NCBI GenBank assembly: GCA_037893245.1
Contig: JBAIAA010000669.1
Location: forward strand, 1,426,001-1,490,000
Reading direction: 5' to 3'
Source of the DNA: Crossaster papposus
Taxonomy: Eukaryota > Echinodermata > Asteroidea > Velatida > Solasteridae
DNA length: 64,000 bases
In this document: piece by piece, positions 22,701-64,000 of the stretch
Position numbering within the stretch: the first letter of the stretch is position 1
Layout of the letters: each line of letters opens with the position of its first letter
Position numbers and translations under genes: made by a program
Notes under the pieces: generated by a model
What the model was told of the DNA's origin: nothing
What the model saw: only the letters and a program-made list of their open reading frames with translations
The model's database searches: none

Positions 22701-23025
22701 CACTTAACGACCGAGGGGCGAGACACAAAGGAGAACAAAGGAAACAAATCCTCGATCTGAGCGAACGGGATTGGGTATAGTAAAGGAACAAAGGAAAACA
22801 CAATATCGATCCTCGATCGTTATGTGATTCACGACGGGGTGCGCATGTCGCACGCGTTGTGGACATTTTACAAGACGTGCCTGTGGGCGAGCCTATTTGT
22901 CAAGGGAAATGGAGCTCATCATAATTATGACATGCGCACTAGTTGCTGGACTTTTGTATCTACTCGTGTGTATTACTGACATAGAAATAAGATATAGTGA
23001 AATTACACACTTTTGGTTTGATGTA

Positions 23026-23058
<33 letters not shown>

Positions 23059-35060: not shown

Positions 35061-35156
35061 ATGACGGTCAAACAAGTGGTGACGGAAGCTTTTTGGCTGA
35101 CGATGTTACTTTTATTGGGCATGTCCAACGGCGATAGCTCGGAGTGTGAAGATTGG
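35061..35156 (+). CDS. Copy B exon 1: start and signal peptide
   Basis: Thirty-two codons beginning MTVKQVVTEAFWLTMLLLLG. The hydrophobic core FWLTMLLLLG with following small residues (MSNGDSS) is a classic secretory signal, with cleavage probably near SNG|DSS. The exon ends ECEDW followed by GTAAGT. The frame is open upstream to about 34818, but the Met before the hydrophobic core is the sensible start. The next exon (37330) joins in phase 0. Confidence 0.75.
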
Positions 35157-38100
35157 GTAAGTTTACCAATGTAAGCCCAAATTCCACATCGAAATGAGTA
35201 GTTAGCGGTAACACCATGTGAAACTTCTCTTCAGTTTTGGTTGATTTGGATGAGTTGGTGAGAATATCATCAAATCCTGTAATATTTCATGTGGTAAATT
35301 CTTTGACACCAACGGGCATTTTGTCCCACTAAGCTTAGACGCAGTGATCAAAACGGTTTTGAATAATATATCATATGTATTTTTAACATTAGCCTGGGAG
35401 CCAATACTAAAATAATAAGTAAATAATAAATAAGCGATTTGGGCACAAATGTTTTGATATAACCAATATTCGTCGGTAGAGAGTAAGAATAGTGCTGGGA
35501 TAGCACTGGGTTTTATAAATGTGGATGCCAATAAATGTTGGTGTCCCTCTTTACATTAAGATATTTGTTTCCCTATAGCATTACCAATATACAATATGTG
35601 ACCCGCTCCTACAGAACCCGACATAAGTGGGGTTTTATTTAAATGAGATATTGTTATTTCCATTTAGTACACATCTTCAGCTTTCATTTGGTACCAAAAC
35701 CACCTTTACATCAAACATACTTTCAATTTTATGAGATTTCGATGTATTTGGGAGATAAATTACCACTTTTAGGACACAGTTTGCCTCAATAAATGTATGA
35801 TTTGTGTACTTTCTCATCAATAAAGTTGATTTTGTTTAACCTAACTGAGGGTTAAATTATACATATCAAAGAATAAAAAACAACGAAAAACAAAATCGAT
35901 GTCCGCCAGATTTGTCACCCCATTTCAACTTTGACGAGCGTATTATTTCGGGTTTCGTGGAAGCGGGTCACATATACAAATGATTTGAGTTGCTCAATTT
36001 ATAGTACCTATTGTTTGGTAGCAAATAATGAAACATCTTACTAATCTTTTGACAGTATATAGCCCTGTAAAACAGTTCACGGTTTCACGTGTAAAAGGGA
36101 CACCATTAAAGCTGTGAGATTTTTTTCAATTGCTGTGGAAATGCGTTGTTTGATTCTAATCAAATACTGCCATGTGCACATTATCATGTGTATGATAATT
36201 GCCCTTCATTAGAGGCACTGATTAACAATTTTACACGGACGAACGAAGGAGCTTTATCGGGAGGCGTTTTATGTTGGGGGTGGGGGGGGGGGGGGGGGGT
36301 AAATAACTGTGTTTTGGGGGCACAAATATTGTTCTTATGGTCTGAACAGATGGATAGAAGTTCCCTGGACACACATACCAAAGTTTAAACATTCTAGCTA
36401 TTTACACAAGTCAGTGGCTTTTGGGCGAAACCATTATTTTGAAGGGTTGGTCTATCCCCTGGATGACCAGGGGATGACCTCTTGGGTTAGAAATGTTTAT
36501 CCAGTCTAATGAACAGGGTCTAGCGATAGATGGAAAAAATCAGCTCCATTGACTGAATGAATTTTGTTTAATTAACAAAAAATAGTTGTTTGTCCACCCG
36601 GTGGAGCCCCTTCGCTTCTCCTAGCAAGTTAATACTGCTCAAGAATGAAACTATATTTAAATTATTTAATTTACTAGTTGAGCGAGATTCACAGTGCGTT
36701 AGCTTAAACGTTTCACGTGTGTAAACGACACAGACAAAAAAATGGGTTCACTGGCAAATCAAAACGTATCATTATTAACTCCAGACAAAAAAAATCTATT
36801 TAAACAGCAGGAAAACTAATTGTTGTTCCCTTTAAACGTGAAACCGTTAATGAGTTTTGACATGATATTTTGGCATTTCTAGAGTAAATAATAATGTCTG
36901 ATTTTGGCTACTGTTAACTTGAATGAGGAATGACAACCGATCTTTAATTAAACGGAAAATTATTAATGAAACCCCTGTCAATTAATTATTCTATTTTGAC
37001 TCACAATGTCACAAGTTGACACCCTAATTTATGGAATAACCCATAAAAACAGAGTCAACGGACGGGCAATTATTAAACTTCGAATATACAGCACAATGAG
37101 CATTTCTTTGCTTACACTGTCAACATAATTAGTGAAAACAACAGAAATTAGTCATATGAGGCATCATTACGACTAACATTTGTCAACATTATGCCTGATA
37201 TGACCAATTTACGTTATTTTGACTAATATATTGACAGTGTTTTCAACAACAGCTTGATCACAACAAAAAATGAACATTTGGTGGTAATTCTCTATAACAG
37301 AGTGGTTGTTTTAAACTTCTTTGTTTTAGGGGGAAACGTGTTCGGGTTATATCTACACACTTCAAAGTCAAGAAGAGGCCCAATGGCATCTAGCGTCGTG
37401 TGGTGACAATGGCGAAGTTCTCAACATAACCGATGAATCTGAACTGAAATTCATTAGGGAAAATCATAACTTATATGGTTGTAAAATATGGATAGGTTTT
37501 GTCAGCATCATAAAGGTGAATTTAATTCAAAATACAATGCATTTTGTTAATTAATGGCTAGTTTTACATTGTTTGCGACGATATATTTTATCATTGTAAA
37601 CAAAGACAAAGTATGTTTCATTACAGTTGGTGTGTCCGTGCTTTTAGAGGAATGCACCCTGAAAAATAGATTTTCAAATTGAAATGATAGCTTGCTAGCA
37701 TTGTATTTGTTGTGAGCTTTCGAATGAGACATCCCACAAACAAAATCGGCCAATGGCGAGTAACGATTAATTAAATTCGAATTTTCAATTAGAAGGGTCT
37801 CAGTATGCACAACTGACCTGGAGAGCGCAATTTGTGCATTGAAAAAAAACCCACACTTTTAACAATGTGTAAAGGCCTGCAACAATGCAAACAAATTATT
37901 ATGGTCTTTATTAACAATTCGTTCGGAAAAGAAATTCGAAATTTTGAAAAAGCACGGACAACCCAGCCGGACAACCAACGTTAAAGTCAAAACTACTTTA
38001 AAAAGCTTCGTAGAGTGATTGTTATTCTCTGAATGTAAACAAGTATTTAAACCAAAATACTCGAAGTTGTCACTTAAGCCCTTTGAAGAGAGTGACTTTA

Positions 38101-41100
38101 ATTCAATCTTCTACAGTTGTACCCACTGTGGATGAGAGTGAAAGACCAATTGAAAAAATGAAAACTTTACTAAAACAAAAGTTCAGAAATGAAAATTAAA
38201 ATTTGGGCCACACGCTCATGAGATAAAAACCCGCCTAAGTGATATTAGTCTCATTTTATGGAAAACTGCAAAGTCGCCATGAAAGCTTTTATACAACTTT
38301 AATTTTAATAATGTTCGGCATTCTCAAAGCAAATTGAGCTGATACTGTTTTGCAATTGAGAAGTATTTAGAACATTATCCCCTAAGATATTGTTATAATG
38401 ACTGATTAAGTTGTAAGAAAAACGTTTAGCCTATATAATACAGTATTCTAACATCAAACTACTGTTCTATTTTAGCTTCTTCAAGTAACAATTGAGTCTG
38501 ATTCTGGTAAGAACAACATTATTTTTGTAATTTAATTTAACTACCACATTCAATTTCGTTCGAGACAAATGTCAGACGCTTTTACGAAACCAATTTAGTC
38601 ATGTTATCGTTCAATTTCAACGTTTGCTCACTCTTTTTAAAACACTAGGTCGAGAATACTCGTCATTAAAGTTCAAATTTGTTTAAGCTGTTGCGAAAAG
38701 GCAACATTCACAGATTTAATTCGTCTTAATATCAATACATCTCAAACTTATATCAAACAAATTAGTTTGATGTGTGCGTGAGTTAAGCACACATCGGACT
38801 AATTTACTTAGCATAAGTTTGAAATTGATTGACATAAGACCAATTCGATCTCCGAATGCTGCCTTTCGGCAACAGCTTATAGACATTTGATCTGTACTGA
38901 CGAATAGTAAAAAAAAAGTTTAAATAGAGTGGCCAAAATTTGATATTGAACGGCAACTGACTAAATCGGTTTGTTAACATCGTGTGATTTTTTTCCTCGG
39001 ACGAAATTGAATGTGCGAGTCGGTGAATTTTGAATGACAAATGTTTTAAAATAGCCGGGGGAAACCTATATACAAATACCGCGTGACGGATTTTGACCAA
39101 AGGAAATGCGTACAACTTGAGCAAAAAAGGTTACCGATATATTTGTTTTTGCCCCAAAAATTCTTAAAGATAAGGGCCATTGTATTTAAAATTCCAATAG
39201 GATCGCATTTTGACCATCCGCATATTATTGCACACGTATAGTTTGGGTTACACCCCCCTCCCTTTCCTAGGGCCGTCTTAAAAAAAACATTACTTTCTTA
39301 ACAGATAGGCCTAAACCCGCCCTGCGAGGGCCAAATTATTTTCCAATGGCTTATTCGATTGTATAACTAAATGATTCAACTACAAAAGGGCATAATAATT
39401 ATATAAAATTGCTCTAAAATTCTTATAACATAGTCACCACCCTTCTAATCTAATTCAATCATGTTTAGTATAGGTTTTCCCGGGCGATATCGGAAAAAAA
39501 GTGCATTCGTTTTCGTGCGAAATAGTATAAACGTAATGAACGTAATCCCGTTTTCTATTTAACAATTAATAATTCTTTGTCCGTGAATTTGCATTCAGTC
39601 GTAAAAAATCGGCGTACAATTTCCCGAATGTGCACTGAATTTAGTAACGATAATTCATTTTAGCGCGAATTCAAATGCACATTCTCAATCCTGTGTTCCT
39701 TTTAATATATCAACAATCGATCTCACTTAATGTGCAGCCGATTTTCTGCGCATTGTTGTCAAGCATTGGAATTCATTTATGTGTTAACCAAAGTAACATA
39801 ATGGGAACTAAACCAGGGGCCAATTTATGAAGCTGCTAAGTACAACAATTTGCTTAGCACAAACATGTCTTGCTCAGCCCTAATCCGGTTACCACCCAAA
39901 ATGTCATGTGCTTTTTTATGCTAAGCAATAACCTGCCAAATATAAGTTACAAACAATATATATTACCTGAAAGTTTGGTTCGTAACCCTGTTTTTGCAAA
40001 GAAAGAATTGCCATGCTAAGCAACTGTTTTGGGGTCCATAAAATTGGTCCAAGGTGGTCTAGTTTTTTTAAACACTGAAGAGGTGACACTAGCGAAACGC
40101 ACTGCATGCACGGTACAGACATACATGTACATATACATCATACCCAATGTGTTGAAAATGAGAAGAGACTTTAAAATACAATTCATAAATATCTGAGACT
40201 TTTTTTATTGGTTGACTATTTTGTAGTCTAAATTCCTATTGTTAAACGGCCGATAAAACATGGTCCAATGGGTGTTTTAAACGCTTTTTTGTGTCACATT
40301 AATTTTGAACTCCTATGAAGTCTGGTCCATGACCTTTTCATTGGTTAAAACCTCCCATATCATGCATAATACAACCAAATTGTATTCAGAATATGCGAAT
40401 TTAAATTATAACAAATGAAAAAGAATATCCAATTCAGGTCGTGACACAATGACAAATCGATTTGCTGCGAAATATATTGCACATTCCTAATAATCGGCCA
40501 CGCATGCATCAAACCGAAGGTCTAATTACGGATTTGTAATCGTTGAAATGAAACGTTATTAATCATCACTGTCTTATTTAAATCAAACAAAATGAAATCA
40601 AATGCTCGTTTTTGCACAAATGAAAAGCACATGACGTTTTGAGTGCTAACCTGATTCAGACTGAGCAAGACATGTTTGTGCTACGCAAATTGTTATGTTT
40701 AGCAGCTCCATAAAATTGGTCCGTGGTTCGGTTCCTCATATATTACTTTGGTTAACACATTAATAAATTCCAACGCTTGACAGACATACATTTTATTTTA
40801 ATGCGCTGGAAATCGGCTGCACATTTAGCGAAATCGATTGTTTATAAATTAAAAGAAACACAGGATTGCGGATGTGCATTCCAATTCGAGCTAAAACGAA
40901 TTTTCAATATACTAAATTCAGTGCCGTGACATTCGGGAAATCGTACGCTGACTTTTTACTACTGACTGCACCTTCACGGAAAAAGAATTATAAATTGTTA
41001 AATGGAAAACGGGATTTGGAAGGTTCATACTATTTCGCACAAAAACGAATGCATCTTTTACAAATTAATGCGCACATTTTCCGATATCGTCCGGGAAAAC

Positions 41101-44100
41101 CTATAGTTATTGCGTAGTTTAGAATATCTTCCATAACCGCCGCTCTTATCATACAATGGTGATAAAAGTACACATTACGTGGACAAAACATATGTCAGTT
41201 TGCATGGCAAAGTTTCGTTGTCTGCCATTTTTTGCCGATAGTTGGTCCCCGATGCACTATGCCATGGAAATGTTGCTCTTGATAACCAGCGCGACTAACC
41301 GCGGTATAGGTTGGTCGCGAACCGACTGGCGTTAGTTTGGTCAGAGTTAGTCGAACTATGGTTAACTATAGTCCTTGATCAAACATGCTCATTATTTTTA
41401 GGTAATTTCCGTTAATATAGGCTTTCCCGCACATTTTAACATTTTTTTTTAAAATTCAAATTCATAAACAGACGACGAAATTGAATTGTCTTTTCCCAAA
41501 ACGTATGACAAATGTATGAAATTATTTGGACAAGTGCGCACATTAGCGACCATTGAACATGGGGTATGCACGGTCATAATATTTTTGACAAAATTAACCT
41601 TAACTGTTGATAACATTGAATGAACAAAAAAGTGTTTAAATGTGCGGGAAAACCTATAAATAAACCCAAAATAATCTGTAAATTATCATTCCCAACTCTC
41701 ACGTTCAATTTCGTCCGAAAAACAATCACACGTTAATACCAAATTAATGTAGTCATTTACCATTCAATTTCAAAGTTTGGTCACTCTATTTAAACATTGA
41801 ATGTAGAATATTCGTCATTACAGACCAAAGTCAAGCGCACATCAGACTAATTTGTTTAAAGGTATGATACACCATTTGCAGATTTTGAAATGTTTTACTA
41901 CCGAATTATTAAGAAATATCTTACTAATTTGGAAAGAAAATAATGATTTTAGGCATCCAGCAAAATGATTGCGCTAGATATTCAGTAATTTTTCCGACCG
42001 CAAAAAAAAAACAAGAACAAAATTAGAACCACTGCCCGACGCCGGTTGAAAATGAACGCCATTTTTCTTGCTTTACTCTGCACCCATTGTAATTTGTAAA
42101 ACTTTGGACAGGTCAGTTAAAGGGATCGTACACGTTTGGTAATTGGAACCCATTGTCTGTTTCAATTCTATATAGTTATAGATATATACCAAAAAACTAA
42201 CCTGTAAAAAATTAATTTCAAAAGGTGGTAGCGATTTTGAGATATTGCCGAAAATCTGGAGCGGTTATTTCCACGCAGGAAGAATAATCTGCATTGGCAT
42301 ACACAATCTGAGAAACGTCACTGCTGTAACGCTTCTCAAATTCATTTTTGGGGGGATAAAAAGTTATTCCATAACCGCAGTACTTCGAAGTGAAAAAGTT
42401 ACTAAAAATGCATTATACTATCCAAAGCTGCTGTACTTCTTACCAAGTAAGTTTGTATTTCCATTAATTTTTTGAGTAATTACCTAACGTATACGATCCC
42501 TTTAAACGATATTTACTATAAAATACAATCAACCAAATCCACTCATTCGTGATAATTCAAACAATTACCAATGGTGTATCCTACCTTTAAATTGATTGAT
42601 ATACGAACAAATTTGATCTCTAAATACTGCCTTTCGGCAACAGCTTAGACGAGAATTTGATCTGTTTTGACGAATATTTTCGACCCGTCGTTTAAATAAG
42701 GTGACCAAACGTTGAAATTGAATGATTACAATACTGAATTGGTTTGTAAAAGCGTGTAATTTTACCCCGGACAAAATTGAATGTGAGAGTTGGTGAATTT
42801 AAATGAAAAATATTTTAAAATAGCCGAGAAAACCTATATTAATAACTTAAATACTGAGGTGTTGTGCATTACATTTACTTTTAGGTAGGAACTGTGTTAT
42901 AATGTACAACATGTACCTTGAAACAGACGATTGTTCAAGTGAACATAACTTCATTTGTAAAAAAGGTGAGTGATTTTTATCTTCCAATATAGAAATTGTT
43001 GATAAAAATAATCAATAGAGCTAAGGTTTTAATTATTTACAAACCGACGACCATTATACGTAAAACTCACTGTGTGCAATGCTGGGTGCAAGTCCCCCTA
43101 TACCTGTCTTATTGATAAGCGATATTCAGTGGAAAATGCTCCACTATACAGATATTAGAGTGGTTCGGTGTTATATTTAAAGATTACCGTTTCGAAGCGG
43201 ATAAAAGCACGTTATTTGGCATGAGTCTCAATGAGGGCCTAGTAATTAATGTTGGCCTAATGACACCCAAGACTGCATGGTGGCACGACCTGGCGCGGTT
43301 CTAGAGCCAATATTTTAGAGGATAGACCCTTCGCTTGGAACGTCAACTTCTAACTTTTGCAGATCCAGTATACGTATTTTCCAGATTGTATTTTGTATGC
43401 ATGTTTGTTTACCAGCATTACCCAGGTCATCCACATCAACCAGTTCACCCACATCAACCAGCTCACCCACATCGACCAGCTCATCCACATCAAAACAACT
43501 AAACGCTAGCGCCATAATTACCCCCTCCTCACCAACTTCGCCTGCAACTATCAATGGTGGTGGGACTACCAGGTCATCGGCATCCCTGACAAGCTACGGT
43601 CCCACTGACATCAAGACTACATCAGAATCTACTAGCTTTTTAAAAGAACTACAGACAACCGCTGTGACCACACCTACCCCGTCAGCATCCACTTCTTCTG
43701 CCAATACCATCGATACAAGTTCATCCTCCACTATGACATCGAGAAGCCCATCAACCAACTCACCCACATCACGGAAATCGAGCACTAATAACAGCGTCAC
43801 ACCTACCACCTCCCCGCTACTTTCGCCTGTAACTACTGATGACGGTGCGCCTACCTTGTCATCTACATCTCAGACAAGCTACGATCCCACAGGCATCAAG
43901 ACTATACCAGGATTTGCTACTGTGATACATCCAACTCTAACCAATCGGTCGCGTTCTAGCCCAGCCAACTTGGGGACATCACCAACTTTGGCACCAACTA
44001 CCCTAAATATCACCCCATCTCCCCCTGAGACAACCAGGGAGAGGACCATTGCATCTACGACAGTACCCAAGGTATGTAGCAAAAGTACTACGGTCCATGT

Positions 44101-47100: not shown

Positions 47101-47691
47101 TCCGTTTGACCCCCCCCCCCCCCCCCCCACCCCCAACAAAAAAAAGAGCTAATGTTATATACTACACTTAAAAGAAAATGTGCAGTGAAATGAATAGTGC
47201 CCCATTAACCTTTCTGAATGTTCCTATTCCATGTGTGGATGGAATAAAGCAAGCACCTCTTATAGAAAGAGCCCACCGATGAAATTCAGTTAAGAGACTG
47301 GCTGTACGGAAGATTTCAGATTGTGCAAACCCCCAAAAGTTACACATGATAAGAGGTGCTGACCTCCAGTTTTACACCAAAGCCGGCCAACTGTGCGTCG
47401 TTTGGCAGGATGCCAAGCGTGTAACTCTTTTCACAAATGTTGGAAACTGCAAAATCGAAAGACATTCGGAGCAAAAACAGTTTGAGCGGACTTCGTACGA
47501 TCAAAAAACCTTCTGTCGTTAATGATTATAATAAATACATGGGAGAAAGTGATCTCGCAGCACAAATGTGTCAGTACTACTCGCACCCTCACAAATTGAT
47601 GAAATGTGGTGGAAAACAGTTTTCGTGGCCATTCGTGGCATCCATTTCAATGTTGGAGTGAAGGTGCACACACCGCTAACCCAACATTGAG

Positions 47692-47728
<37 letters not shown>

Positions 47729-50700
47729 CTTAATTTGAACTTTTAACTGCATCCACAGTGTACCCATTTTGTATGTTTGTGCAATTACCTTCATAGTCCG
47801 GATTTACTTAATTTTGAATACAATCTAAGTATCTAAGTAAAATCTAAGTATTTTCAAAGAAACAATTGACATTTGCTCACTCCTAAATTAGTATTTCTTT
47901 ATCAGATTTACAATTCTTGGTAGTTGCCAAGTCATATTAAGGGCACAAAACTTCTCACAGGCCAATATTGTTGTTTTAATTAATCTAATAGTCATTGCTT
48001 TGGGGGTACTGTAAATCCATTATGATTCAACACCATCAAAGAAGAGTGGCCTTTAATTACTTTGCCTTGCGGGGGCGCTATACACTAAAACTTGGCAAAA
48101 AAGTGCTTGTTCACTAACTGGTAATATCATGCACATTACTCTGGTAACCTAAGCATAGTGACAACATATGCCTTGGTACTGAATGGGCTAGACACAGGAC
48201 CCTTGTGTCAATCACGACCTCTCTAGCGTTGTTTTCTTTCTTCACCTCTAAGCTGATTTGGCAATGGTGCTTTCAAAAAGCCTTACCGATGAGTCCTCAT
48301 CACCGGCTCCACCAATCACCAACGACACGGGTCTGGACCCCAGCCGGGCCGGTGACGTCGTCCAGGTCACGGACGTCGTGTCCATCTCCCTTGCTCCGAC
48401 GCACAGCGACGAGGGACCGTTTGACTTTCACGACAATCCGTTCGCGTTGGAACTGCTTCACAATCAGGTAAGCATTTTCACAAAGTGTGGCCTAGTGGTT
48501 AGGGTTAGTGCCTTGTGATCAGGGCCAGGGGTTCGAAACCAGCTGCTGGTCATTATGTTGTGTTCATGGGCAAGACGCTCTATTCCCGCTTGCCTCTCTC
48601 CACCAATCAGATAGGGCATTCCAGGTGACCCTGGCTTATCTCACCCAACATGGTTTTGGCTGTGGACTCGGCCATCATCAGGTTGTTATCCTCGATCAAC
48701 CTAAACAAGCAACATTAAAGGAGTATTGTTTAGGCCTACCGTTTATAAACGGGTCAAAAGAAATAAGTCCCCCCTGAGAAATGTGCATTTTTCTGGAAGA
48801 CAGTTAGGCTCCTTAACCTGTTACAAAAATGTAAAATGTAGTCTGAAATGTTACACATTTATTGTTCAATAAAGTTTCACCCAACAGTTAACCTTCGCAT
48901 TGAAATGCTGCCATTTATTATATGTGATGACCAATAACAAATGACACTTTCTTGCATAGGGATTAAACAAATGGAGACAATTATGTTTTTACAGAATTTG
49001 TTTATATTCTTTCCTCACTTTAATTAATTTTCCTAAAGTGTACAAATGTAAACATGCATTTAATGTTTTTGTTTTTGTTTTTAATTGTCTAAATCTACGA
49101 AGTACAGTAAATTAGAGTCACCAAAGCAAAACATTTTTTTAAAGCATAAAGTTTTTGTGGAAATGAAAACTTGGTGTTTTTTTTGGTCCTTTCGTTTCAG
49201 TAATGAAATTAAAAACAAAAACAAAAACATTAAATGCATGTTTACATTTGTACACTTTAGGAAAATTAATTGAAGTGAGGAAAGAATATTAAAAAAGTAT
49301 GTAAAAACATGATTTTCTTCATTTTTCCATCTCTGTGCAAGAAAGTGTCATTTTTTTAAGCCTGGACGCGCGGTCACGGATTTGCCTTGCACGTTGGCAA
49401 TAGATAATTTGTTGATTACGAGATCGTGCGCGTCATGGAAAATATTCTTGAATCTAATCCAGTATTGTTTTCAACAAAATAAAATGCATTGCTTTTTTAT
49501 ATAGTTTTGTGGGTGTGCGACGTGAGTAAAAGAAAATAAACAAATTCGGAACAATTACAGGATATCTAGCGCAATCATTTTGCTGGATGCCTAGATTCAT
49601 TATTTACTTTCAAATAAGTAAGATATTTCTTAATAAATTGGAAGTACAAAAATTCGATATCTGCAAATGGTGTATCCTACCTTTAACTGCATCACACAAG
49701 ACGGTCGTATTCGGTCTTAGATGAGTAGGACTATTGTGGCTTCTTTGAAATTCTTGTTTATCCTTAGGTCATCGAAGGAAAGGCGAAAAGGGCGTGTGTA
49801 TTTTGGCAGATTCAGGACTAGTAAGTACATTGTATGAATATTGTTGTCTCAACGTTAAACACTGCATGAACGAGTAAACATCTTTATCACCAAATTAAAC
49901 GTACGGATTACAGTTGTTGATTGAACCCTATTTAATTTTAGTTAATATTTGTAGACTGTGCTATGTCATGATTCTATTTTCAGCGAAACCTATGAGGGCG
50001 TCTGGTCTGGTGAAGGATGCACTGTGTCTTTTGAGGGCGCCAATTCCACCACGTGCTCGTGCAATCACCTGACCAACTTTGCCGTGCTCATGCAGCTGGA
50101 TCCGGACCCGGTAAATTCGAAAACCACAGTTTTAAGATTTAAAGTCTTATAATACATCTGCTACTTACTGAGCAAATTGTAAGTTGAGTTTTGGAAAAGT
50201 TTGTATTTGTGCACAAGTCCTTTGGAGTGTCTACCTAAAGCTATGGTCACAAATCAGAGCAGCGACCGACCGATCAGTAGCCTGCTCGGTCGCTGCTGAA
50301 ATTTAGGCATCGCCCAGCGATTTTTGGAGAAGTCGAGCAGGCTGTAGAGCCCCAGCGATGCCTGGGCGGTGACCTGTCGATTTCCCGTCGGTCGCCGGTC
50401 GATTTTAGGTCAAAACTGGGCGAAATCGGAGCTTTTTCGCGCGGTGTCCCGGCAGTGACCGACCGGTGACCCTCCGATTGCCGAGCGGTCTCCCACCAGC
50501 CACCGGCTGATTTTAAAGAAATTGCCCGGCGGCCGGCCGGTAATCGACGGGGCATCGGCGGGTGTCTCGTAGGCGTACTGGCGGCGGCCCACCAGGCTCT
50601 GCCGAAAATTTATCCCGGGCAACCTGGGATGTGACTTCCCCAGACTGGTCATCATCAAAACCGCTTTTGCTTTGTCATTGCCATTGTCATTGTAATTGTC

Positions 50701-53700
50701 AGCCATTGTCGGCTAGACGTCGCGGTGAATGGAGCTGGCGCTGCTGGACGCCGACCGATTTTGAACTCGCCTCCCAGTGACCGATTAATCTCTCAGCGGC
50801 GACCGGGCGGCGACCGCTCGGCAGCCTCTTCGATTTTTGACTTAATTCGCTCAGCGGCGAACGCTCGATTAGGTCGGTGCCCGGGCAGCGACCGCCCAGG
50901 CACCGAGCGTATTTTGGGCGGCGAGTGAAAAGTGAGCAGGCGCCGCCCAAATTTTAACTCCGCGCTAAAACTTCAGCGGCGACCGAGCGATGCCCTAAAA
51001 ACGAGCGGTGCCTGGGCGGCCGCCGCTCGGTGGCTGGGCAGAATTGGTTAAAAACTCGCCGCTCGGCCGCCGAGCAGGTTACTTTTAGGTAATGTGACCA
51101 TAGCTTAAGGTAGTTTCTTCAGTTATACTTTAAGTGTAGCGGGTCTTGCTTGTCGACTTTGATTAGTAGACTGTCATGGCCCATGCAGTCATTATGGTGT
51201 TCCACTAATGTGCGGTGGTGCGTGGGTTCGTACCCTGCCAGTAACGTGGTGTTTGCGTTTTTGGGCAATGCCTCTCTCCACCCAGTAGTATACATGGGTA
51301 CCAGTGAGGGTCGAGGTCGAATTGAGCGCTGATATCGGCTGCCATGTGGCCCAGGGTTTGATGAAAGGGGTAATAATTGTATAGTACCGCTATCGTCGTC
51401 ATTATAAATGCACATTGCACAATGCACATTGTTGATTACAGGCCCTAGTCTCTAATATTCCAGATGTCTTTTATACAATAGGACCCACTACCTGAAGCAG
51501 ACGAGAAAGCCTTGACTATTCTGTCTGTCCTCGGAGGTTCTCTGTCCATTCTCTGCCTCACCCTGATGCTTGTTATCTACGCACTTTTAGGGTAAGAATT
51601 GTTCGTAAATTTGCTCCCTTGTGCACACCGACAAACAACATAGGACAACAGCGTCTCCACAAGGGAATTCTCAACAGAAAATGTCTCCACAAAGGAATTT
51701 GCATACAAAGTATATGGACCAATTCCTATATATAATACAGATACAAAGGAATACACAATGGCATGTCTCGTGTAGATGTGTATTTTCGTACTATAGGTAC
51801 TACAAATTCCCATTACCCATTACTTTAATTCCGTCGCCAAACAGCTCAATTCTCTAATTGAATTTCAAAAAGCCACCACTAGATTTCATTTGAGGTTCGG
51901 TATAATTCAAATTGTTATCATACCGATTCGTCCTAAATTTGTAAAATTCGTCTCGTGCGGCAATCAGCGTTGAATAGAAAAAGAAAATTTCTTTTTAGTA
52001 TCATTTTATTTGACTCTGTGGTCGTTCAATTTCGTTCCGTTTACTCTAAAACATTACGGTTAAGAAACGAATTTAAAAGACCAAAGTGTTAAAACGTATG
52101 ACAAGAAACGAATTTGCTTTTTTATATATTATACGCCGATCACTAAGAGACAAATTTCACGAATTTAGTACGATTCGGAATGCTACCAATTTGAATTATA
52201 GGTTACTGCGCCTTAATCTATTGGTAACTTTTTGAAATTTAAATTTAGAAGTGAGCTCGGCGAGGTTCGAAGACGAAATTATCATTTCGTATTGAGGGAT
52301 TCTTGCAACATAATTGTTAAAATGACCGGGAAAACCTATAGGCCAACATAACCTCCGAGAACCCCCTGTCGTTGAAGTGTACGATACGTCTATGAGGTTA
52401 GGTTATCATGCAGGAACAAAGGAAAACACAATAGGGGATTCTCGGTCGTTATAGCAAAACACGACTACACGAACCAAACTTTGTTTTTATTTAGACACTA
52501 AATTTTACTTTTTTTATTTTTTTCGTTTTCATTTATTTTTGTGAAGGATGTACAAGTCTGAACGTGGGATGGTCCATGCCAACCTGTGCGTTGCGTTGCT
52601 GAGTTCACAGCTTATATTTATGACAGGGATCGACGCTGTGTCAAACGTGAGTTTGGTTGGAATCCAAGTGGCAAGAATACTATTCTCGATCATGTGTTTT
52701 AGTTCGCTACCTTTATGGGATAAAAAAAAGGAATGAAAAGGTCTCCACAATGAATTTTTAGAGCGGAGGATATATCCACAAGGTATCTCATATAAAGCAA
52801 AATATGAGACGGAGGGAACCCCCTTCCTTTGTGGTGGTCACTGTGCTTGCGGAATGTTGTGGTTTCCCAGGAATTCTGTTTAGGTTTTTAGGGGGGGTGT
52901 GCGTTAGGTAACAGTCTAGAGAGTGTATATGTATGGGACTAAGGGGGTGTCCCTTTGTCTCATACCATGCTGGCTAAAAGGAATCTTGTTCCCAAAGTCC
53001 ACGGGGATACAAAAAGACATTTCATCGTGAGACTTTATAGATACACACGGCCTTACCTTTAGGTTAATTAGGTTTTTCCTGTTATTAAAAAAAATTAATC
53101 CATTTTATTTTCACCCTAGTTCATTTCATTGTGGTTACACCCCTTCCTTGTTTGTTCCCCAACCAGGTTTTCTCCCTGTTACCCTTTGTTCTATCTTTGA
53201 TCCTATACCCACTCTGACCTTCGCCTAATCCTCCTTTTGTTGGTTCATCCAACCGACTTCTGTGTCGCTCATGTTATGTATCATGCTTGTATGCCCCCTT
53301 CATAACACCTATGTTTGTTTCATGTACACAGCCGTTTTACCTATGAACGAGATCTTGTTAAGATTGAAATATTAGGCCTTCTTAATTTATTTGATAACTA
53401 GACGTTGTGTTACTAATTGTAATGCGCACGTTGATGTCATGAATAAAACATTTATATTATTATCTCATGCATTATTTATGATTGTGTCTCTGCAGCCAAT
53501 AGGCTGCAAGGTCGCCGCGGGCCTGCTACACTACTTTCTGCTGGCCTCGTTCAGCTGGATGCTGGTAGAGGGCGCCCTGCTCTTCGCCAGCGCCACGTTT
53601 GTTTTTCACCGGCAGGTTCGTCTCTGGAAGCTCTTGCTGCCCGGCTGGGGTGAGTGCAGTGCACAATGGGGCCGAAACCTCAGTGCTGCGTGGATATCGT

Positions 53701-56700
53701 AGTTGATGTCTTAACTTAATGAATTAGTTGACTTCTTTTTCAAGTAGTTTGTTTTCAACAACTAGTTTTTACTCCAGAAACAAAACTATCAGTCTAAACA
53801 AAACACACAAACTAATCAATATATTCTATCAATCATTTTTACTGGTAGACCCGCGAATGTGGCGGTATAGAGTGCAGTGCCCGTTCAAATTGTGCAACAG
53901 CGCGTGACTGTATATTACCCCTGTGATATGAAAATCAGACTGCTGCGATCATCTGACTTATTTTCCCTATTATTTTTTAAATTATTGGCCTGTTTTTGTT
54001 CTTTTCTTAATACTTTTCCAGGCGTGCCCGCCGTAGTTGTGGCAATCACTTTTGGTTTAGCTGGAAATGATTATGGATCAAAAACAAAGTAAGTCAATAT
54101 TACGACTGTCAATACGCACTGTTTTGGAAAAGGGCTTTCGTTTATTTGCAGCGTATGCACAACGTATATAACGTGTGCTTAATTTGTTTAACATAAGTTT
54201 TAAATTGATTGATATAAGACGAAATCTGTAAATATCATGCCTTTCGGCAACAGCTTAGACGAATTTGATTTGATGTGAGAATTGGTGAATAAACTGGGAA
54301 AACCTATTGTTATATAGATTATACAATATGGCACGGTCTTAAAAACGTGCGTGGGAAATGCTGTGCTAACGTCCAGGATTAAATAAAATTCTGATTTCGT
54401 TTTGTCTCGTAGATGCTGGCTTAATGGTCAAACTACTTGGGCGTTTATCGCCCCTGTCATCTTTGTGGTAGCGGTAAGACAGTTCAACTTTCGTCGAAAT
54501 CTAATATAATATACGCAGCTGCTGCGCATGTCGCACGCGTTGTGGTAATTTTACGAGACGTGCATTTGGGCGAGCCTATTGGTCAAGGGTAATGGCGCTC
54601 ATCATATGACCTGCGCACTAGTTGCTGGACTACTCACGTGTAATACTGACATAGGAATACGATATGGTGAAATTACACACTTTTGGTTTGATCTAATTCT
54701 TCCAAATAGGCACTTTGGGAGACAAATTAGCGATAGTTTTGATTCACTTGGGAGACAGTGGCACTTAGGGAGACATTTCAGTGTCTCCCTAAGTGTCTAG
54801 CTACCCCACAAAACGATATTTGGGAGTTATTTTTGCTCGGAGAAGACAGATTTGGGTCTAAATAGCATAAATATGAAATTTCGTGGAAAAAGCTCCAGGT
54901 AACAACGGGTTAGGTTACAATAAAGATTGTGCACGACTCTATGGGATTGTCTCCCAAAGTGCCCATTTGGAGGTATAATAATTATTATTATTATTATTAA
55001 TTCTTTCTGGTAATGAAACCAAGGATCCCTCAAAGGGTAACTCGTAACTCGTAAGCCTGAATAAACCTACAGAGAGAAGACAATGAGAAAAAGTTACATT
55101 CTTTAGAGGTGGGAGCAAAACCCCAGAAGAATATCCTGGAGAAAAGCCACGGAATCATGGCAGGGACTAGATACCTAATCTACATATTGGCCCAGACCGG
55201 ATTCAAACCCAAGTCACAACGGTGGAAGGCGATGAAAGAACCGCTACGCCAACCTGACGTTAACATCTGAACTATTCAAGTTTAACTATTCATCCAAAAC
55301 AGATTCCACGTACTTCCTACATTATGTAATGTGCCAAATCAAGTAAATTCGGTCTCATATGCATTGTGCACATGCATTTATTCGAAAGTTGAGTATGCAC
55401 GATTTAGGGATAATTGTATTGAGAGCTGATTATTAATTAATTCATAATGAATTTTGAATGATTCAATTACAGGTAAACCTAATCGTTTTGATCTTCGTAT
55501 TTAAATCACTGGCGAAACTAAAGGTTGTGAAAAACGGGACAGAATTCACCAAAATAAGGTAATATACAAGGGTGTCTCCCCCCAAAAACACGACCCTTAT
55601 TTCCAAGTAACTCACGGTACTAGTTTTCACATAATGTGACGGGCTGGTTTCGATGTGCCATCGCCGGGTTAAAAAACTGACTTTAATCTTACCCTCTCTA
55701 GGGTGTGTTCAAAATCATATAACAATTTGATGAAATTGTGTAATAAAAACTAGATGTGGGTTTGGGTATTATATTCTAAGAAGAAGAAAAAAAAACAAGC
55801 CAGAACACCCAATTCTGATCAGTGAGTTAATATAAGCTTGTGAATGAGCCAGTTTGACCTTTGGTCCCATAGAGTTGTGGCGAGGGCGCTGTTGGTCGTG
55901 CAGCCGCTCATGGGTTTCACCTGGCTCTTTGGTCTCGGGGTCAATGCTCCCGATGACGCCAAACTCGTATTCTACTATTTCTTCGTCGTTCTGAACTCGA
56001 CGCAGGTAATCAAACATTTGAATAGAAATTTCGCAGATGGAAATGGTTTCAAATTTCATAAGCGAAATGTTGTACAAACTATTAATTCGTACGACACACT
56101 TCTTGCTGTTTTTTGTACTCTGATTGACAGAAACACAGTCACGTGGGGCTCACTAATATAGGATAGTTCGGGGAATTTGAGTATAGTGCCTGATCGGGCA
56201 CTATACTCGAAAATTGAACTAGTTAATTATAGCGCTCTCTTCATGGATAATGATGTGCGTTATAAAACACGTGGACAAGAACTTTATTCGGTCACTAGCT
56301 AGTGCACACGTCTATGTCCCTTAATATGAGTGACCAGGAGAGAGTCCTATTTCTTAGTCATTTGGCTTTGGGCAATACGACCCTCTCCTGGTCACTCACA
56401 GTTCCTCGGGGCACATAGACGTGCACTAGTGACCCCAACGTTTAAATCATTCCATAACATTATTATCACTCGTGTTATTGTTCCGCACTTTGCGATTTCC
56501 GGTTTTAATCAAATCTATTTCGCTGTTGTTGTGTTGTTGAACCGTACTAGTGCCCTTGCCAAGACTATCGAATACATCTAGTTCCGCGTATACAAGTTAC
56601 CTTTTTAATTTTGTCACCCTATAGGGCGTGTTCGTCTTTTTCTTGTTCTGTCTGAACACGGAAGAGGTGAGTTCTTAATCACTACACTGTTGGTCTTCTG

Positions 56701-57261
56701 TTCACGATACTACTTATGGTCATTATTATGAGCACACAGAATGTGGGCACCCATGCTGTACAGAGTCGTATACTTATAGGAAGGGCAGTGACCAACCACT
56801 GGTCTCATCGGCAATATAACCGGTCCTTTCTACCTGCCATCATCCCGGTGTGTAACAATCTACCAGATGAAATAGTCGTTCATCCTCACCACACTAGAAA
56901 CAAGAACCTTTGCCACACAGTCAAAGTATGTCATGGGAAAGATATTTGGCTATAGGACCATCGCAGAATACAGGTAGAAAAACAAGCAATGGCAGCCATT
57001 TTGAAAATGTTGGCCCTATATAGCCAAATATCTTTCTGATCACATACTTTGACTGTGTGTTAAATGTTGTGTTGTTATCATCAAGGGAACAAATTCCATG
57101 CTTTAATCATTGGAATAAACAAGGTCAAACAAGCAATCGGCCGCATCCGGCGTCGGTTCGACGGCAGTCACCGTGTCAAACCGCAGGTGTCGTTGGAGCT
57201 CACAACGTCGAGCGGAGTCGAGAAAGATACCGAGAAAAATGGCAAGAAGGACACCAAGTAA
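35061..57261 (+). CDS. C-type-lectin mucin adhesion GPCR, copy B (complete model)
   Basis: The 19-exon model is 35061-35156, 37330-37515, 38476-38506, 42885-42965, 43416-44071, 44493-44610, 45080-45208, 48253-48467, 49768-49820, 49984-50110, 51482-51591, 52547-52646, 53496-53649, 54022-54088, 54413-54473, 55473-55558, 55873-56005, 56625-56666 and 57124-57261. The lengths sum to 2583 bp (860 aa plus stop) with every phase matching. The order is signal peptide, C-type lectin-like domain, mucin stalk, GAIN-like region, GPS, seven helices, charged tail. By family it is a self-cleaving adhesion receptor at the cell surface; the lectin head suggests glycan or protein recognition (inference). Exon lengths from 44493 to 56666 equal those of copy A exactly, which supports both models. 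The lectin exons depend on splice prediction alone and are the least certain part. Confidence 0.85.
35157..37329. other. Copy B intron 1
   Basis: About 2.2 kb, AT-rich, without a recognisable coding segment. A run of about 20 G interrupted once lies near 36279-36298. No clear transposon ends were identified. Confidence 0.4.
37330..42965 (+). CDS. Copy B C-type lectin-like domain exons
   Basis: Exons 37330-37515, 38476-38506 and 42885-42965 encode, after the Cys of exon 1, GETCSGYIYTLQSQEEAQWH, LASCGDNGEVLNITDESELK, then GCKIWIGFV, and finally RNCVIMYNMYLETDDCSSEH plus NFICKK. These fit the C-type lectin skeleton: paired Cys, the WIG motif and a terminal C...(F)ICKK. At about 100 residues the domain is short; the usual 115-130 includes a long-loop region that is reduced here. 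I see neither an EPN/QPD triplet nor WND, so calcium-dependent sugar binding is doubtful. Phases are 0-0, 0-1 and 1-1, and the last joins the stalk exon. Confidence 0.7.
38540..39070. mobile_element. Palindromic foldback element in lectin intron
   Basis: The left half, read in reverse, matches the right half around a centre near 38780. Pairs include AAGCTGTTGCGAAAAGGCAA with TGCCTTTCGGCAACAGCTTA, and CAACATTCACAGATTTAATT with its right-hand partner. The right end reads CCGGGGGAAACCTATA. Same family as 41690-42837 and 20880-21130. Confidence 0.75.
39470..41105. mobile_element. 1.6-kb long-TIR foldback element
   Basis: Left end ATAGGTTTTCCCGGGCGATA and right end TATCGTCCGGGAAAACCTAT. Similarity between arms extends inward for over 400 bp, for example AGCACAAACATGTCTTGCTC (39857) with GAGCAAGACATGTTTGTGCT (about 40662). 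The unique centre, about 39920-40620, has no transposase-like frame. It fills much of the third lectin intron of copy B. Confidence 0.8.
41416..41657. mobile_element. Small element with GGTTTTCCCG-type termini
   Basis: ATAGGCTTTCCCGCACATTT at the left and AAATGTGCGGGAAAACCTAT at the right are inverted repeats of about 20 bp around 200 bp of unrelated AT-rich sequence. The termini resemble those of the neighbouring larger foldbacks. Confidence 0.7.
41860..42586. mobile_element. TTAA-type MITE (middle layer of nest)
   Basis: Termini AGGTATGATACACCATTTGC and CCAATGGTGTATCCTACCT are inverted repeats, flanked by TTAA at 41856-41859 and 42587-42590. A TTAA duplication with AGG-type ends points to a Kolobok- or piggyBac-like mover (inference). 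It is interrupted by the inner element 42121-42501. Confidence 0.75.
42121..42501. mobile_element. TTAA-type MITE (innermost layer)
   Basis: Termini AGGGATCGTACACGTTTGGT and ACCTAACGTATACGATCCCT, flanked by TTAA at 42117-42120 and 42502-42505. A single end of the same family lies at 59403 (AGGGATCGTATACGTTTGGT). The frame 42245-42475 lies inside it and has no transposase motifs. Confidence 0.8.
43416..44071 (+). CDS. Copy B mucin-like stalk exon
   Basis: A single 656-bp exon encoding about 218 Ser/Thr/Pro-rich residues. It opens with a short tandem peptide repeat (units of TSSPTS, DNA unit ACCAGCTCACCCACATC-like) and ends ETTRERTIASTTVPK, matching the end of copy A exon 1359-1754. It is one exon here against three in copy A, so stalk length differs between paralogues. 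It joins the lectin exon in phase 1 and the next exon in phase 0. Predicted role: extended, heavily O-glycosylated spacer. Confidence 0.85.
44493..48467 (+). CDS. Copy B GAIN-like membrane-proximal exons
   Basis: Exons 44493-44610, 45080-45208 and 48253-48467 have exactly the lengths of their copy A partners (118, 129, 215 bp). Replacements cluster near the end of the first exon (RCGTQSSRKKMGLPES against RCGTQSPGETMDLLES). At the third exon the copy A alternative acceptor GGCAG|TG reads GGCAATG here, so only the upstream CACCTCTAAG|CT can be used. A piggyBac relic lies in the intron before it. Confidence 0.75.
46025..48187 (+). mobile_element. Decayed piggyBac-like transposon
   Basis: Termini CCCTATCAGTACC and GGTACTGAATGGG form a 13-bp imperfect inverted repeat flanked by CTAG on both sides (46021-46024, 48188-48191). 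Copy A has uninterrupted sequence at this place, so the insertion is specific to B. CCC-type ends and the internal transposase remnants identify piggyBac. The usual target is TTAA, so CTAG is atypical. A 35-bp G run lies at 47695-47728. Confidence 0.85.
46320..47661 (+). pseudogene. piggyBac transposase remnants
   Basis: Three pieces in different frames. An acidic N-terminal-like segment lies at about 46320-46452 (SGSDMSDDESPVATSDKSDE). A segment at 47346-47450 (LCVVWQDAKRVTLFTN) resembles the W-D-K-V-LL-T core of the catalytic domain. A C-terminal-domain segment lies at 47437-47661 (KKPSVVNDYNKYMGESDLAA, then YYSHPHK), matching the family's YN-MGGVD-ADQ-YY pattern but with the MGGVD motif changed to MGESD. 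Frameshifts and large gaps show it is dead. Confidence 0.8.
48608..48751 (-). pseudogene. Remnant of the nested TRIM gene 5' end in copy B
   Basis: About 144 bp nearly identical to 10000-10140, covering the first two dozen TRIM codons (start at 48678; MMAESTAK region to ECPIC), the splice-acceptor-like CTAAAC on the plus strand and the upstream GTAGGCCTAAACAATACTCC-type sequence. It is joined directly to the shortened family-1 SINE at about 48600. The rest of the TRIM gene is absent. Confidence 0.85.
48752..49767. other. Copy B intron remainder before GPS
   Basis: Contains an inverted pair around 49180: TAATTTTCCTAAAGTGTACA (49025) with TGTACACTTTAGGAAAATTA (49248), plus TAAACATGCATTTAATGTTT and its complement, making a foldback of about 450 bp (48900-49350) whose outer arms include AGTGTCATTT/AAATGACACT. 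A TTAA-type MITE follows at 49366-49688, shared with copy A. No gene. Confidence 0.6.
49768..50110 (+). CDS. Copy B GPS exons
   Basis: Exons 49768-49820 and 49984-50110 encode KRACVFWQIQDYETYEGVWS, GEGCTVSFEGANSTTCSCNH and LTNFAVLMQLDPDP. All conserved Cys and Trp and the HL|T cleavage triad are kept. Differences from copy A are conservative (QDN/QDY, CNV/CTV, CDHL/CNHL), consistent with retained autoproteolysis. Confidence 0.93.
50239..51105. mobile_element. Harbinger-like GC-rich MITE
   Basis: Termini AGCTATGGTCACA and TGTGACCATAGCT, flanked by TAA on both sides (50236-50238, 51106-51108); a 3-bp TWA duplication is the PIF/Harbinger signature. The site is empty in copy A. The 867-bp interior is far more GC-rich than its surroundings and is an array of degenerate words such as GGCGACCG, CGAGCGGC and CCGGTCG in both senses. 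Frames in it (50410-50706 minus and others) are by-products of that composition. Confidence 0.85.
51170..51360 (+). repeat. SINE, family 1 core with tRNA-like B-box
   Basis: GCGTGGGTTCGTACCCTGCC serves as B-box region, followed by CCTCTCTCCACCCAG, ATGGGTACC and GGGTCGAGGTCGAATTGAGC. The truncated counterpart in copy A is 18149-18300. Confidence 0.6.
51482..56666 (+). CDS. Copy B seven-transmembrane domain exons
   Basis: Nine exons (51482-51591, 52547-52646, 53496-53649, 54022-54088, 54413-54473, 55473-55558, 55873-56005, 56625-56666 and their junctions) mirror copy A in length and phase. Key motifs are intact: GCKVAAG and HYFLLASFSWMLVEG in TM3, KCWLNGQTTWAF in ECL2/TM5, QPLMGFTWLFGLGV in TM6, and GVFVFFLFCLNTEE-like sequence at the TM7 end. 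Substitutions relative to A are mostly hydrophobic exchanges in helices. Only one TM5 exon is present. Confidence 0.92.
52803..52975. mobile_element. Diverged GCACGATATG-family MITE
   Basis: ATATGAGACGGAGGGAACCC at the left and TGTCTCATACCATGCTGG at the right, with interior AGGAATTCTGTTTAGGTTTT and GTTAGGTAACAGTCTAGAGA. The layout matches the members at 57602 and 58904. Absent from copy A, where a different repeat (TTTTACGGCGAAGCGACT) follows the same flank at 19817. Confidence 0.6.
54970..55262 (-). repeat. tRNA-derived SINE, family 2 (copy B orthologue)
   Basis: Same structure as 23026-23311: (ATT)n tail at 54976-55000, body with GTGGGAGCAAAACCCCAGAA and GGAGAAAAGCCACGGAATCA, and on the minus strand a tRNA-like head with an altered B-box (GGGTTTGAATCC). 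Confidence 0.7.
56164..56222. mobile_element. 59-bp palindromic insertion
   Basis: TAGTTC, AATTTGAGTATAGTGCC, a five-base centre TGATC, then GGCACTATACTC and AATTGAACTA. The matching copy A site (CTAATACTGGTTAATTATAG) lacks it. One of the smallest hairpin insertions in the window. Confidence 0.7.
56290..56434. mobile_element. Short foldback MITE in TM7 intron (copy B)
   Basis: GGTCACTAGCTAGTGCACAC at the left and GTGCACTAGTGACC at the right, with inner arms built on GAGTGACCAGGAGAG/CTCTCCTGGTCACTC. Orthologue of 24459-24597. Confidence 0.75.
56911..57083. mobile_element. Hairpin MITE before copy B tail exon
   Basis: TTTGCCACACAGTCAAAGTA at the left pairs with TACTTTGACTGTGTG at the right. 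Orthologue of 25908-26103, with its left outer end lost at the junction AAGAACC|TTTGCC. Confidence 0.75.
57124..57261 (+). CDS. Copy B cytoplasmic-tail exon with earlier stop
   Basis: Forty-five residues: VKQAIGRIRRRFDGSHRVKP, then a Ser-poor middle (three codons of the copy A Ser patch missing), then GVEKDTEKNGKKDTK and TAA. In copy A the same position is a Lys codon (AAA) and the frame runs 16 residues further. Downstream DNA still resembles the longer copy A tail (GCAGAGGACACCTGCTCGAC), so copy B has lost its last residues by mutation rather than by a different exon. Confidence 0.85.
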   Translation, partial: VKQAIGRIRRRFDGSHRVKPQVSLELTTSSGVEKDTEKNGKKDTK

Positions 57262-63661: not shown

Positions 63662-64000
63662 CTAGTGGTGGGGGCCTCCATTAGTCTCCACGCCCGGCAA
63701 ATTCCAAATCTCAAAGAAGCACGCGGTGGAGTGGAACCGGAAGAGAATCTCCAAAGGCGCCGCCAGGTGCACGATGACATACCAGGAGGTGGCCCCGTAG
63801 TAGCCGTTCTCCAGGGCGTAGAGGTCGTAGCCGCCTTTTAACTCGTAGGTGCTGATTAGCCACCAGGTGATATTGGCTACGAGGAGGAACATCAGGAGCT
63901 GTTTGGTGCGGCTGTTGCGGAAGTCGGCCGGCGGCTTGCGCTGCATGGCGTCCAGGATCAGCACGCACTGCAGCACCGTCTGGATAATATGCGAGAAGTC
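63662..64000 (-). CDS. Otop: Otopetrin-family proton channel, C-terminal part
   Basis: The frame is open from the window edge to a TAG at 63662-63664, giving 112 residues of a membrane protein. Recognisable otopetrin C-terminal features are HIIQTVLQCVLILDAMQRKP, a helix QLLMFLLVANITWWLISTYE, and a final helix region SWYVIVHLAAPLEILFRFHS followed by TACFFEIW. The FRFHS...C-FE-W ending is characteristic of the family, whose members conduct protons across plasma or vesicle membranes. The protein extends a few residues past FEIW (NLPGVETNGGPHH). The upstream exons are outside the window. GC content is much higher than the surroundings, as is usual for a conserved exon. Which otopetrin paralogue it is cannot be told. 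Confidence 0.9.
   Translation of the reverse strand, partial: DFSHIIQTVLQCVLILDAMQRKPPADFRNSRTKQLLMFLLVANITWWLISTYELKGGYDLYALENGYYGATSWYVIVHLAAPLEILFRFHSTACFFEIWNLPGVETNGGPHH

Follow-up and report, generated by a model that had tools for sequence, protein, structure and literature searches.

Many adhesion G protein-coupled receptors (GPCRs) are orphans, and the co-evolution of their binding heads with their signalling parts is an open question. Adhesion GPCRs with a Lectin C-type domain were reported from amphioxus in 2008 (PMC2246102), and a table published in 2014 lists Lectin_C among the N-terminal domains of the 7tm_2 subfamily 'GPRX' (PMC8687355). Sea-urchin membrane proteins of the SpREJ/polycystin-1 family are described as combining a C-type-lectin-like domain (CTLD) with a GPS (PMC1934368). 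EMR2 is described as a chimera maintained by gene conversion with its neighbours; in TLR1/TLR6, gene conversion is described as preserving similarity in the C-terminal region (the last leucine-rich repeats, the transmembrane segment and most of the TIR domain), with divergence in the other domains (PMC2077338). We analyzed a 64,000-nucleotide stretch of the Crossaster papposus genome (the window: positions 1426001-1490000 of contig JBAIAA010000669.1, here C669, in a 1.02-Gb genome of 1841 contigs) and found a 19-exon receptor gene, copy 2, and a tandem paralogue, copy 1, that lies partly beyond the window. Copy 2 probably is a single adhesion GPCR gene whose product would carry a compact non-calcium CTLD head binding a protein or glycoprotein, a stalk and an HL|T switch, with a divergent head on a body close to that of its neighbour; we put the probability of this reading at about 0.76. 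The domain combination is already known, and the interest lies in a young body that bears an old, divergent head.

Like copy 2, the amphioxus and GPRX receptors have a C-type lectin domain N-terminal to 7tm_2 (PMC2246102, PMC8687355), so the suggestion in an initial annotation of this DNA that the domain order may be lineage-specific is not supported. These two accounts differ from what we find here in that the passages concerned refer neither to a mucin stalk nor to a motif-less CTLD, nor to a mosaic of head and body. Titles and abstract openings that we searched, supplements and most subscription journals aside, name no CTLD-headed adhesion GPCR in an echinoderm; 'C-type lectin' and 'CTLD' are absent from 300,000 of the 412,533 characters of a 2026 adhesion GPCR review (PMC13197933), and 'lectin' gave no match in PMC12716839 or PMC4302439. 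The SpREJ/polycystin-1 proteins, as described, differ in having REJ and PLAT domains and 1-11 transmembrane segments, whereas copy 2 has 7tm_2 (PMC1934368). Among its Pfam matches at E<=1 we found neither REJ nor PLAT, nor the 11 transmembrane segments of the PKD1/REJ family. The EGF-TM7 receptors (EMR2/CD97, ADGRE) resemble copy 2 as adhesion GPCRs with binding modules before the seven-transmembrane (7TM) domain, and they have a Ser/Thr stalk, but they carry EGF modules in place of a CTLD; the EGF family, expected of an ADGRE receptor, is absent from the Pfam matches of copy 2 at the same threshold.

The path of copy 2 forms a single open frame that encodes 860 residues, with no internal stop codon and GT-AG boundaries at all 18 introns, and so bears out the phase-consistent 19-exon path proposed in the initial annotation. 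The junctions 35156/37330, 37515/38476, 38506/42885 and 42965/43416 are each present and preserve the frame. On a simple donor score, 17 of the 18 donors exceed the 95th percentile (5.64) of 1374 GT sites between 35 and 58 kb; the exon 6 donor falls under it at 5.1, and the exon 4 donor, at 12.0, is the highest in the gene. Exon 1 is the sole start exon feeding exon 2 within 33000-37330 (donor at least 4, hydrophobic core at least 1.8), and the two alternative frames of the joined exons 6-18 contain 13-24 stops per copy. Other frames of exons 6-7 were rejected for stops in both copies, and an extra exon near 46322-46449 for phases incompatible with the better acceptor of exon 8. The phase 0 end of exon 2 and the phase 1 start of exon 4 require an exon of length 3n+1 between the CTLD halves in both copies; exon 3 ranks first among 24 phase 0-to-1 candidates between them. 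Intron 3 holds large inverted repeats (38545-39015 and 39497-41059), which resemble sequences found elsewhere in both the window and its flanks; these are mobile-element-like insertions that may account for the length of the intron. An 18-bp tandem repeat lies within exon 5 at 43422-43493.

At E<=1, the Pfam families matched by the copy 2 protein are Lectin_C, GPS and 7tm_2 alone. The GPS match covers positions 2-45 of 45 (E=2.6e-14) and the 7tm_2 match positions 3-250 of 250 (E=1.5e-49), which, with a stalk that is 59% Ser+Thr+Pro, confirms the mucin stalk, GPS and 7TM exons named at the outset. The GPS reads CSCNHLTNFAVLM, with HLT starting at residue 550 and cysteines C514, C534, C546 and C548, and the residues after HL|T resemble what we take to be the tethered-agonist consensus. 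Copy 2 is most likely one gene for a CTLD-headed adhesion GPCR in which the HL|T site is intact and the tethered agonist is consensus-like. High-ranking PDB matches of the GPS and 7TM region are ADGRD1 (6.9e-58, the best), ADGRL3 (4.5e-52) and ADGRE5 (2.2e-43), a best match not being a phylogeny; the phmmer alignment to ADGRL3 is limited to the last part of the GAIN region, starting in exon 8. To our knowledge, none of these three receptors has a CTLD. The initial annotation called the receptor self-cleaving: the canonical GPS with HL|T stands, and autoproteolysis would be expected from it, while no GAIN model appears among the Pfam matches (copy 2 at E<=1, copy 1 at E<=10), which leaves cleavage uncertain.

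The identity of the head depends on fainter matches. Against a Pfam gathering score of 22.6 bits for Lectin_C, the copy 2 head trimmed to exons 2-4 reaches 24.2 bits (E=6e-5) in one stretch over profile positions 15-107, so that the domain search for a C-type lectin proposed earlier is positive over both halves. The 131-residue head scores 21.0 bits, under the cut-off, and exons 2 and 4 without exon 3 score 22.9 bits, split over two stretches. Searched against the PDB with phmmer, the copy 2 head gives eight matches at E<=1, of which seven are CTLD proteins by name and the eighth is a 26.7 kDa salivary protein; the best, the PLA2 receptor, has a value of 4.1e-4 summed over its repeats. A profile of both heads, into which the copy 1 head was entered with a candidate exon 3, gives 13 matches at E<=1, all named CTLD proteins. 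The copy 2 head has the WIG motif and seven cysteines in the order of what we take to be the CTLD pattern, with one additional.

Could the head instead be an unrelated cysteine-rich domain? Lectin_C falls to 16.7 bits in the full copy 2 protein, under the cut-off, and to 15.2-15.5 bits in the copy 1 head alone. The top PDB value of the two-copy profile, 9.2e-5 for the PLA2 receptor, adds up several repeats of which none passes by itself; the best match of the profile to a single domain is KLRB1, at 0.0018. A fold search with the AlphaFold model of exon 2 alone, a low-confidence model with a predicted local distance difference test score of 64.8 (five models, 41.6-64.8), returned no CTLD among the 50 matches listed of 184 in the PDB and none at E<=0.001. 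The predicted order of that exon is helix-strand-helix-strand, at the same low confidence, and this is the order of a CTLD half; we count the fold result neither way or, if anything, against a CTLD. Nevertheless, both halves match Lectin_C in the correct order, the PDB matches of either query are almost all CTLD proteins by name, and the cysteine order and WIG motif agree, which makes an unrelated domain very improbable. We consider the assignment of the copy 2 head as a CTLD to be right but weak.

What such a head might bind can be narrowed. EPN/QPD-like and WND-like motifs are absent from both heads (the copy 1 head taken without exon 3), and therefore a calcium-dependent sugar lectin is unlikely. 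No convincing long-loop exon between the CTLD halves was found among the intron candidates. A scan of 37530-42870 in all phases for a missed exon bearing a W/G or EPN-like signature gave only candidates that overlapped one another within 42182-42446; the longest, put in place of exon 3, lowered Lectin_C to 21.3 bits with a split match and was rejected. Given these motif and exon results, the 'pattern-sensing' lectin of the initial annotation is not borne out, and the head is probably a compact CTLD with no calcium-dependent sugar site that binds protein. CTLDs of the natural killer (NK) receptor type (KLRB1, CLEC9A, Dectin-1) are among the better PDB matches of the two-copy profile. Many NK-receptor-type CTLDs have no calcium site, although KLRB1, CLEC9A and Dectin-1 are type II single-pass proteins and not GPCRs.

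Copy 1 begins 41 kb upstream of copy 2 on the same strand. A tblastn search of the copy 2 model against the window recovers exons 5-19 again between position 1 and 26.3 kb; all 14 of exons 6-19 have counterparts, 13 of equal length, with exon 19 aligning 9 bases longer, and their splice dinucleotides are kept at the boundaries shown. The left flank holds the signal-peptide exon and both CTLD half exons of copy 1 in the order, strand and phases of copy 2. Copy 1 matches 7tm_2 at 1.9e-51 and retains HLT. No further copy lies on C669 in the 324 kb examined. The initial annotation had the exon path right and did not include the paralogue or the mosaic described below.

Copy 1 has peculiarities of its own. 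Its stalk region at 554-1514 is tandemly duplicated (482 bp, 96.7% identity, overlapping parts of the stalk exons), and for this reason stalk length may be changing fast. Its 61-bp exon 15 is present twice in a 236-bp tandem block (21176-21411 and 21409-21644, 100% identity). Both copies of the exon together break the frame, so that one is skipped, the two are alternatives, or the block is an assembly artefact. Reading through exon 4 of copy 1, from C669:1425848 immediately outside the left window edge, yields a hydrophobic stretch, LLFIPKILIPIWIL, and then a stop; this may be chance or an anchored lectin isoform.

The paralogue bears directly on whether the lectin and the GPCR belong to one gene, as the initial annotation had them. 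Since copy 1 repeats the order of signal-peptide, CTLD, stalk, GPS and 7TM exons, with an identical joining phase, a single gene is favoured over two. A conserved order is also what would be expected if a gene for a small secreted CTLD protein and an adjacent GPCR gene had been misjoined in the model and duplicated as a unit, and a predicted Lectin_C-fn2 fusion in lancelet, reported as refuted by expressed sequence tags, is a precedent for such a false fusion (PMC4967905). Reading past the exon 4 donor of copy 2 gives KKGE and then a stop, as two genes would allow, but this stop is absent in copy 1, where the read-through extends 29 residues beyond the CTLD end, and that donor is the strongest of the gene. 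In copy 2, a separate GPCR gene could begin at either of two candidate start exons (31810-31873, donor 4.8; 37554-37629, donor 5.6). These are at background, however, with 0.258 candidates per kb and strand, or about 4 expected and 2 found in 15.9 kb; the candidates listed inside the 450-bp intron 4 have donors below 0, and the intron contains no AATAAA or ATTAAA polyadenylation signal. On the copy 1 side, eight candidate rows pass the same thresholds, five of which begin at an ATG within exon 4 and one of these uses exon 4's own donor (9.1); the in-frame ATG is accompanied by a hydrophobic run within that exon. Overall, we regard two genes as fairly unlikely and a single gene as very probable.

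The two copies are not equally similar along their length. Over exons 6-18 (465 codons), synonymous divergence (dS) is 0.107 (bootstrap 0.07-0.15) and non-synonymous divergence (dN) 0.055, whereas the CTLD exons have a dS of 0.83 (bootstrap 0.49-1.55) and a dN of 0.54, a comparison that covers just 48.8 synonymous sites. The proportion of differing synonymous sites (pS) is 0.503 in the head, against a maximum of 0.194 over 84-codon blocks of the body. Between copies, the CTLD exons are 58-60% identical as DNA and 47-50% as protein. The signal-peptide exon (dN 0.20, dS 0.03, few sites) and the shared lower stalk (dS 0.13, dN 0.10) were compared as well, and the 7TM domain shows the clearest constraint, with a dN/dS of 0.38. 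A colinear alignment links the copies in 29 chained blocks of 80-98.5% identity from 31.7 to 58.2 kb. Of several gaps in it, the largest in copy 2, 35377-43656, takes in the upper stalk as well as the CTLD exons; the second largest, 46022-48188, is ~2.2 kb. The introns flanking the CTLD exons exceed the best of 20 shuffles in none of four alignment tests, whereas identity reaches 0.88 in the 5' part of intron 1 and 0.86 in the sequence preceding exon 1; repeat insertions could blur intron homology in this comparison.

Because head dS is high and the CTLD-adjacent introns do not align, while the 5' region and body are close, the promoter region, signal peptide and receptor body appear to have a common recent history that the head does not share. 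Plain tandem duplication followed by fast positive selection on the head, with neither exchange nor gene conversion, would account for the high head dN, and rapid evolution is common in the binding heads of immune-type receptors. Yet synonymous divergence in the head is about eight times that of the body; since synonymous sites and adjacent introns have diverged too, selection at the protein level is insufficient, and we think this explanation unlikely. Preferring a mosaic, we propose that either the body has been homogenised by gene conversion or the head cassette has been exchanged; a single pair cannot discriminate between the two. The pattern suggests that the recognising part is renewed and the signalling part kept. 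TLR1/TLR6 resemble the pair as tandem paralogues alike in part of the receptor and divergent in the rest, but they belong to another receptor class and were compared in nine species, as described, where one pair is suggestive here (PMC2077338). EMR2 differs from the pair in that its head is described as resembling one neighbour and its 7TM domain another (PMC2077338).

Copies also exist elsewhere in the genome. A search with the 42-residue GPS exon gives 26 matches at E<=0.001. Six of these have 90-100% identity, with one pair on each of the contigs C669, C97 and C1; the match ranked next by E-value has 63% identity, and the remainder 46-67%. The four close copies outside C669 are at C1:137890 and 247043 (plus strand) and at C97:209278 and 321432 (minus strand). 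In three of these four, exon 13 and its flanking sequence share 88-95% identity with the window copies. Contigs C1 and C97 may represent the two haplotypes of a single locus. If they are haplotigs, and given the 100% identity of the 236-bp exon 15 block in copy 1, one might suspect that the pair on C669 is itself an assembly artefact, made of mixed haplotypes or misassembled identical stretches. We judge this quite improbable, as the 29 chained blocks differ by 1.5-20% and both copies stand in order on one contig, with no N across the 124 kb joined. Apart from these close copies, seven 7tm_2 matches each, apparently intronless, lie at G000:C335:733266-951822 and G000:C661:467108-693901 (loci L001-L008); open frames are 709-826 amino acids in 13 of 14 and 282 in the other, and one contains TAG. 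The eight loci that were fetched are 26-27% identical to the copy 2 receptor, and C335 and C661 may also be two haplotypes.

Several further points weigh against a single CTLD-headed receptor with a mosaic history. The acceptor of exon 3 scores 0.3, a stricter earlier scan yielded no exon there, and copy 1 has no recognisable counterpart, which makes this exon the weak point of the gene model; the model itself is a prediction from genomic DNA. Outside the 7TM domain constraint is weak, with dN/dS of 0.60 in exons 8-10 (the GAIN part) and 0.77 in exons 6-7, and exon 6 is unconstrained between copies (dN 0.156, above dS 0.136). Finally, the mosaic is seen in one readable pair, the two copies on C669.

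Table 1. Exons of the two receptor copies in window positions; negative positions lie to the left of the window.
Feature	Position	Strand	Remarks
Copy 2 exon 1: signal peptide (MTVKQVVTEAFWLTMLLLLGMSNG...) with start codon, phase 0 at its end	35061..35156	+	Paralogue exon -5906..-5808
Copy 2 exon 2: CTLD first half, WIG motif	37330..37515	+	Paralogue exon -3697..-3515, 47% identity, 58 aligned residues
Copy 2 exon 3: 31-bp micro-exon joining CTLD halves, phase 0 to 1	38476..38506	+	Least certain exon
Copy 2 exon 4: CTLD second half (NCVIMY...DDC...NFICKK)	42885..42965	+	Paralogue exon -248..-153, 50% identity, 26 residues
Copy 2 exon 5: mucin-like stalk, 219 amino acids	43416..44071	+	59% Ser+Thr+Pro, 4 N-glycosylation sequons
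Copy 2 exons 6-7: 82 amino acids, stalk to GAIN-like part, no Pfam match	44493-44610, 45080-45208	+	
Copy 2 exon 8: GAIN-like part	48253..48467	+	Start of ADGRL3 alignment
Copy 2 exons 9-10: GPS, CSCNHL|TNFAVLM cleavage site, putative tethered agonist	49768-49820, 49984-50110	+	
Copy 2 exons 11-14 of 7TM domain	51482-51591, 52547-52646, 53496-53649, 54022-54088	+	Pfam 7tm_2
Copy 2 exons 15-18 of 7TM domain	54413-54473, 55473-55558, 55873-56005, 56625-56666	+	Pfam 7tm_2
Copy 2 exon 19: cytoplasmic tail, stop	57124..57261	+	
Copy 1 signal-peptide and CTLD exons, left of window	C669:1420094-1425847	+	
Copy 1 signal-peptide exon	-5906..-5808	+	
Copy 1 CTLD half exons	-3697..-3515, -248..-153	+	
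Copy 1 stalk, three exons	494-666, 880-1146, 1359-1754	+	279 amino acids, no stop, 58% Ser+Thr+Pro
Copy 1 exons 6-8	2215-2332, 2794-2922, 4601-4815	+	
Copy 1 exons 9-19: GPS (CSCDHL|TNFAVLM), 7TM, tail	16384..26289	+	Tail continues beyond 26289 to stop

The window also contains other features. A TRIM-like intronless open reading frame (ORF) of 652 amino acids with RING, B-box and NHL matches (8150-10108, minus strand) is nested in intron 8 of copy 1, and intron 8 of copy 2 holds a 143-bp piece (48605-48747) that is 96.5% identical to the 5' end region of this ORF. An ORF of 136 amino acids at 6122-6532 (minus strand) overlaps DNA (6204-6476) that is 81% similar to 9018-9292 of the TRIM-like ORF, and is perhaps a decayed second copy. 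The C-terminal part of an otopetrin, of the proton channel family, lies at 63662-64000 (minus strand, E=4.2e-17) and extends past the window edge. A tRNA-like match at 26700-26772 (minus strand, 34.8 bits) is above the Rfam gathering score, with no report from ARAGORN, and could be a tRNA-derived repeat.

How might such a receptor work? The exon structure on DNA, the domain matches, the paralogue and the uneven divergence of one pair are observed. How the gene is spliced in vivo, whether its product is glycosylated and cleaved, what type of ligand it binds, how it signals and what produced the mosaic are inferred, the functional steps being drawn from the adhesion GPCR family. The compact, non-calcium CTLD head would bind a protein or glycoprotein partner on a cell, the matrix or a microbe, and the O-glycosylated mucin stalk would hold it off the membrane and set its distance. 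Cleavage at HL|T in the GAIN/GPS region would leave two fragments that remain associated. Force on the head, or its release, may then expose the tethered agonist TNFAVLMQLDPDP, which would switch the 7TM domain and lead to signalling. The body would be kept alike through recent duplication or gene conversion, leaving the head free to diverge or be exchanged. The outcome would be a small family close in promoter region, signal peptide, lower stalk, GPS and 7TM domain, with a much older CTLD cassette, as read from one pair.

The tandem pair would be a natural experiment, with a nearly identical switch joined to different sensors. If the four other copies carry distinct heads as well, this would be a conserved adhesion GPCR in which the recognising part turns over, by a logic like that of TLR1/TLR6 and EMR2 (PMC2077338). 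More speculatively, and on balance doubtfully, the family may have interchangeable heads, in which signal peptide, stalk base, GPS and 7TM domain are constant and the CTLD cassettes are of old and differing descent. If so, cassettes would be swapped, or spared gene conversion, between tandem copies, and one signalling unit would read many ligands. An invertebrate would then have a receptor system with variable heads on a constant body.

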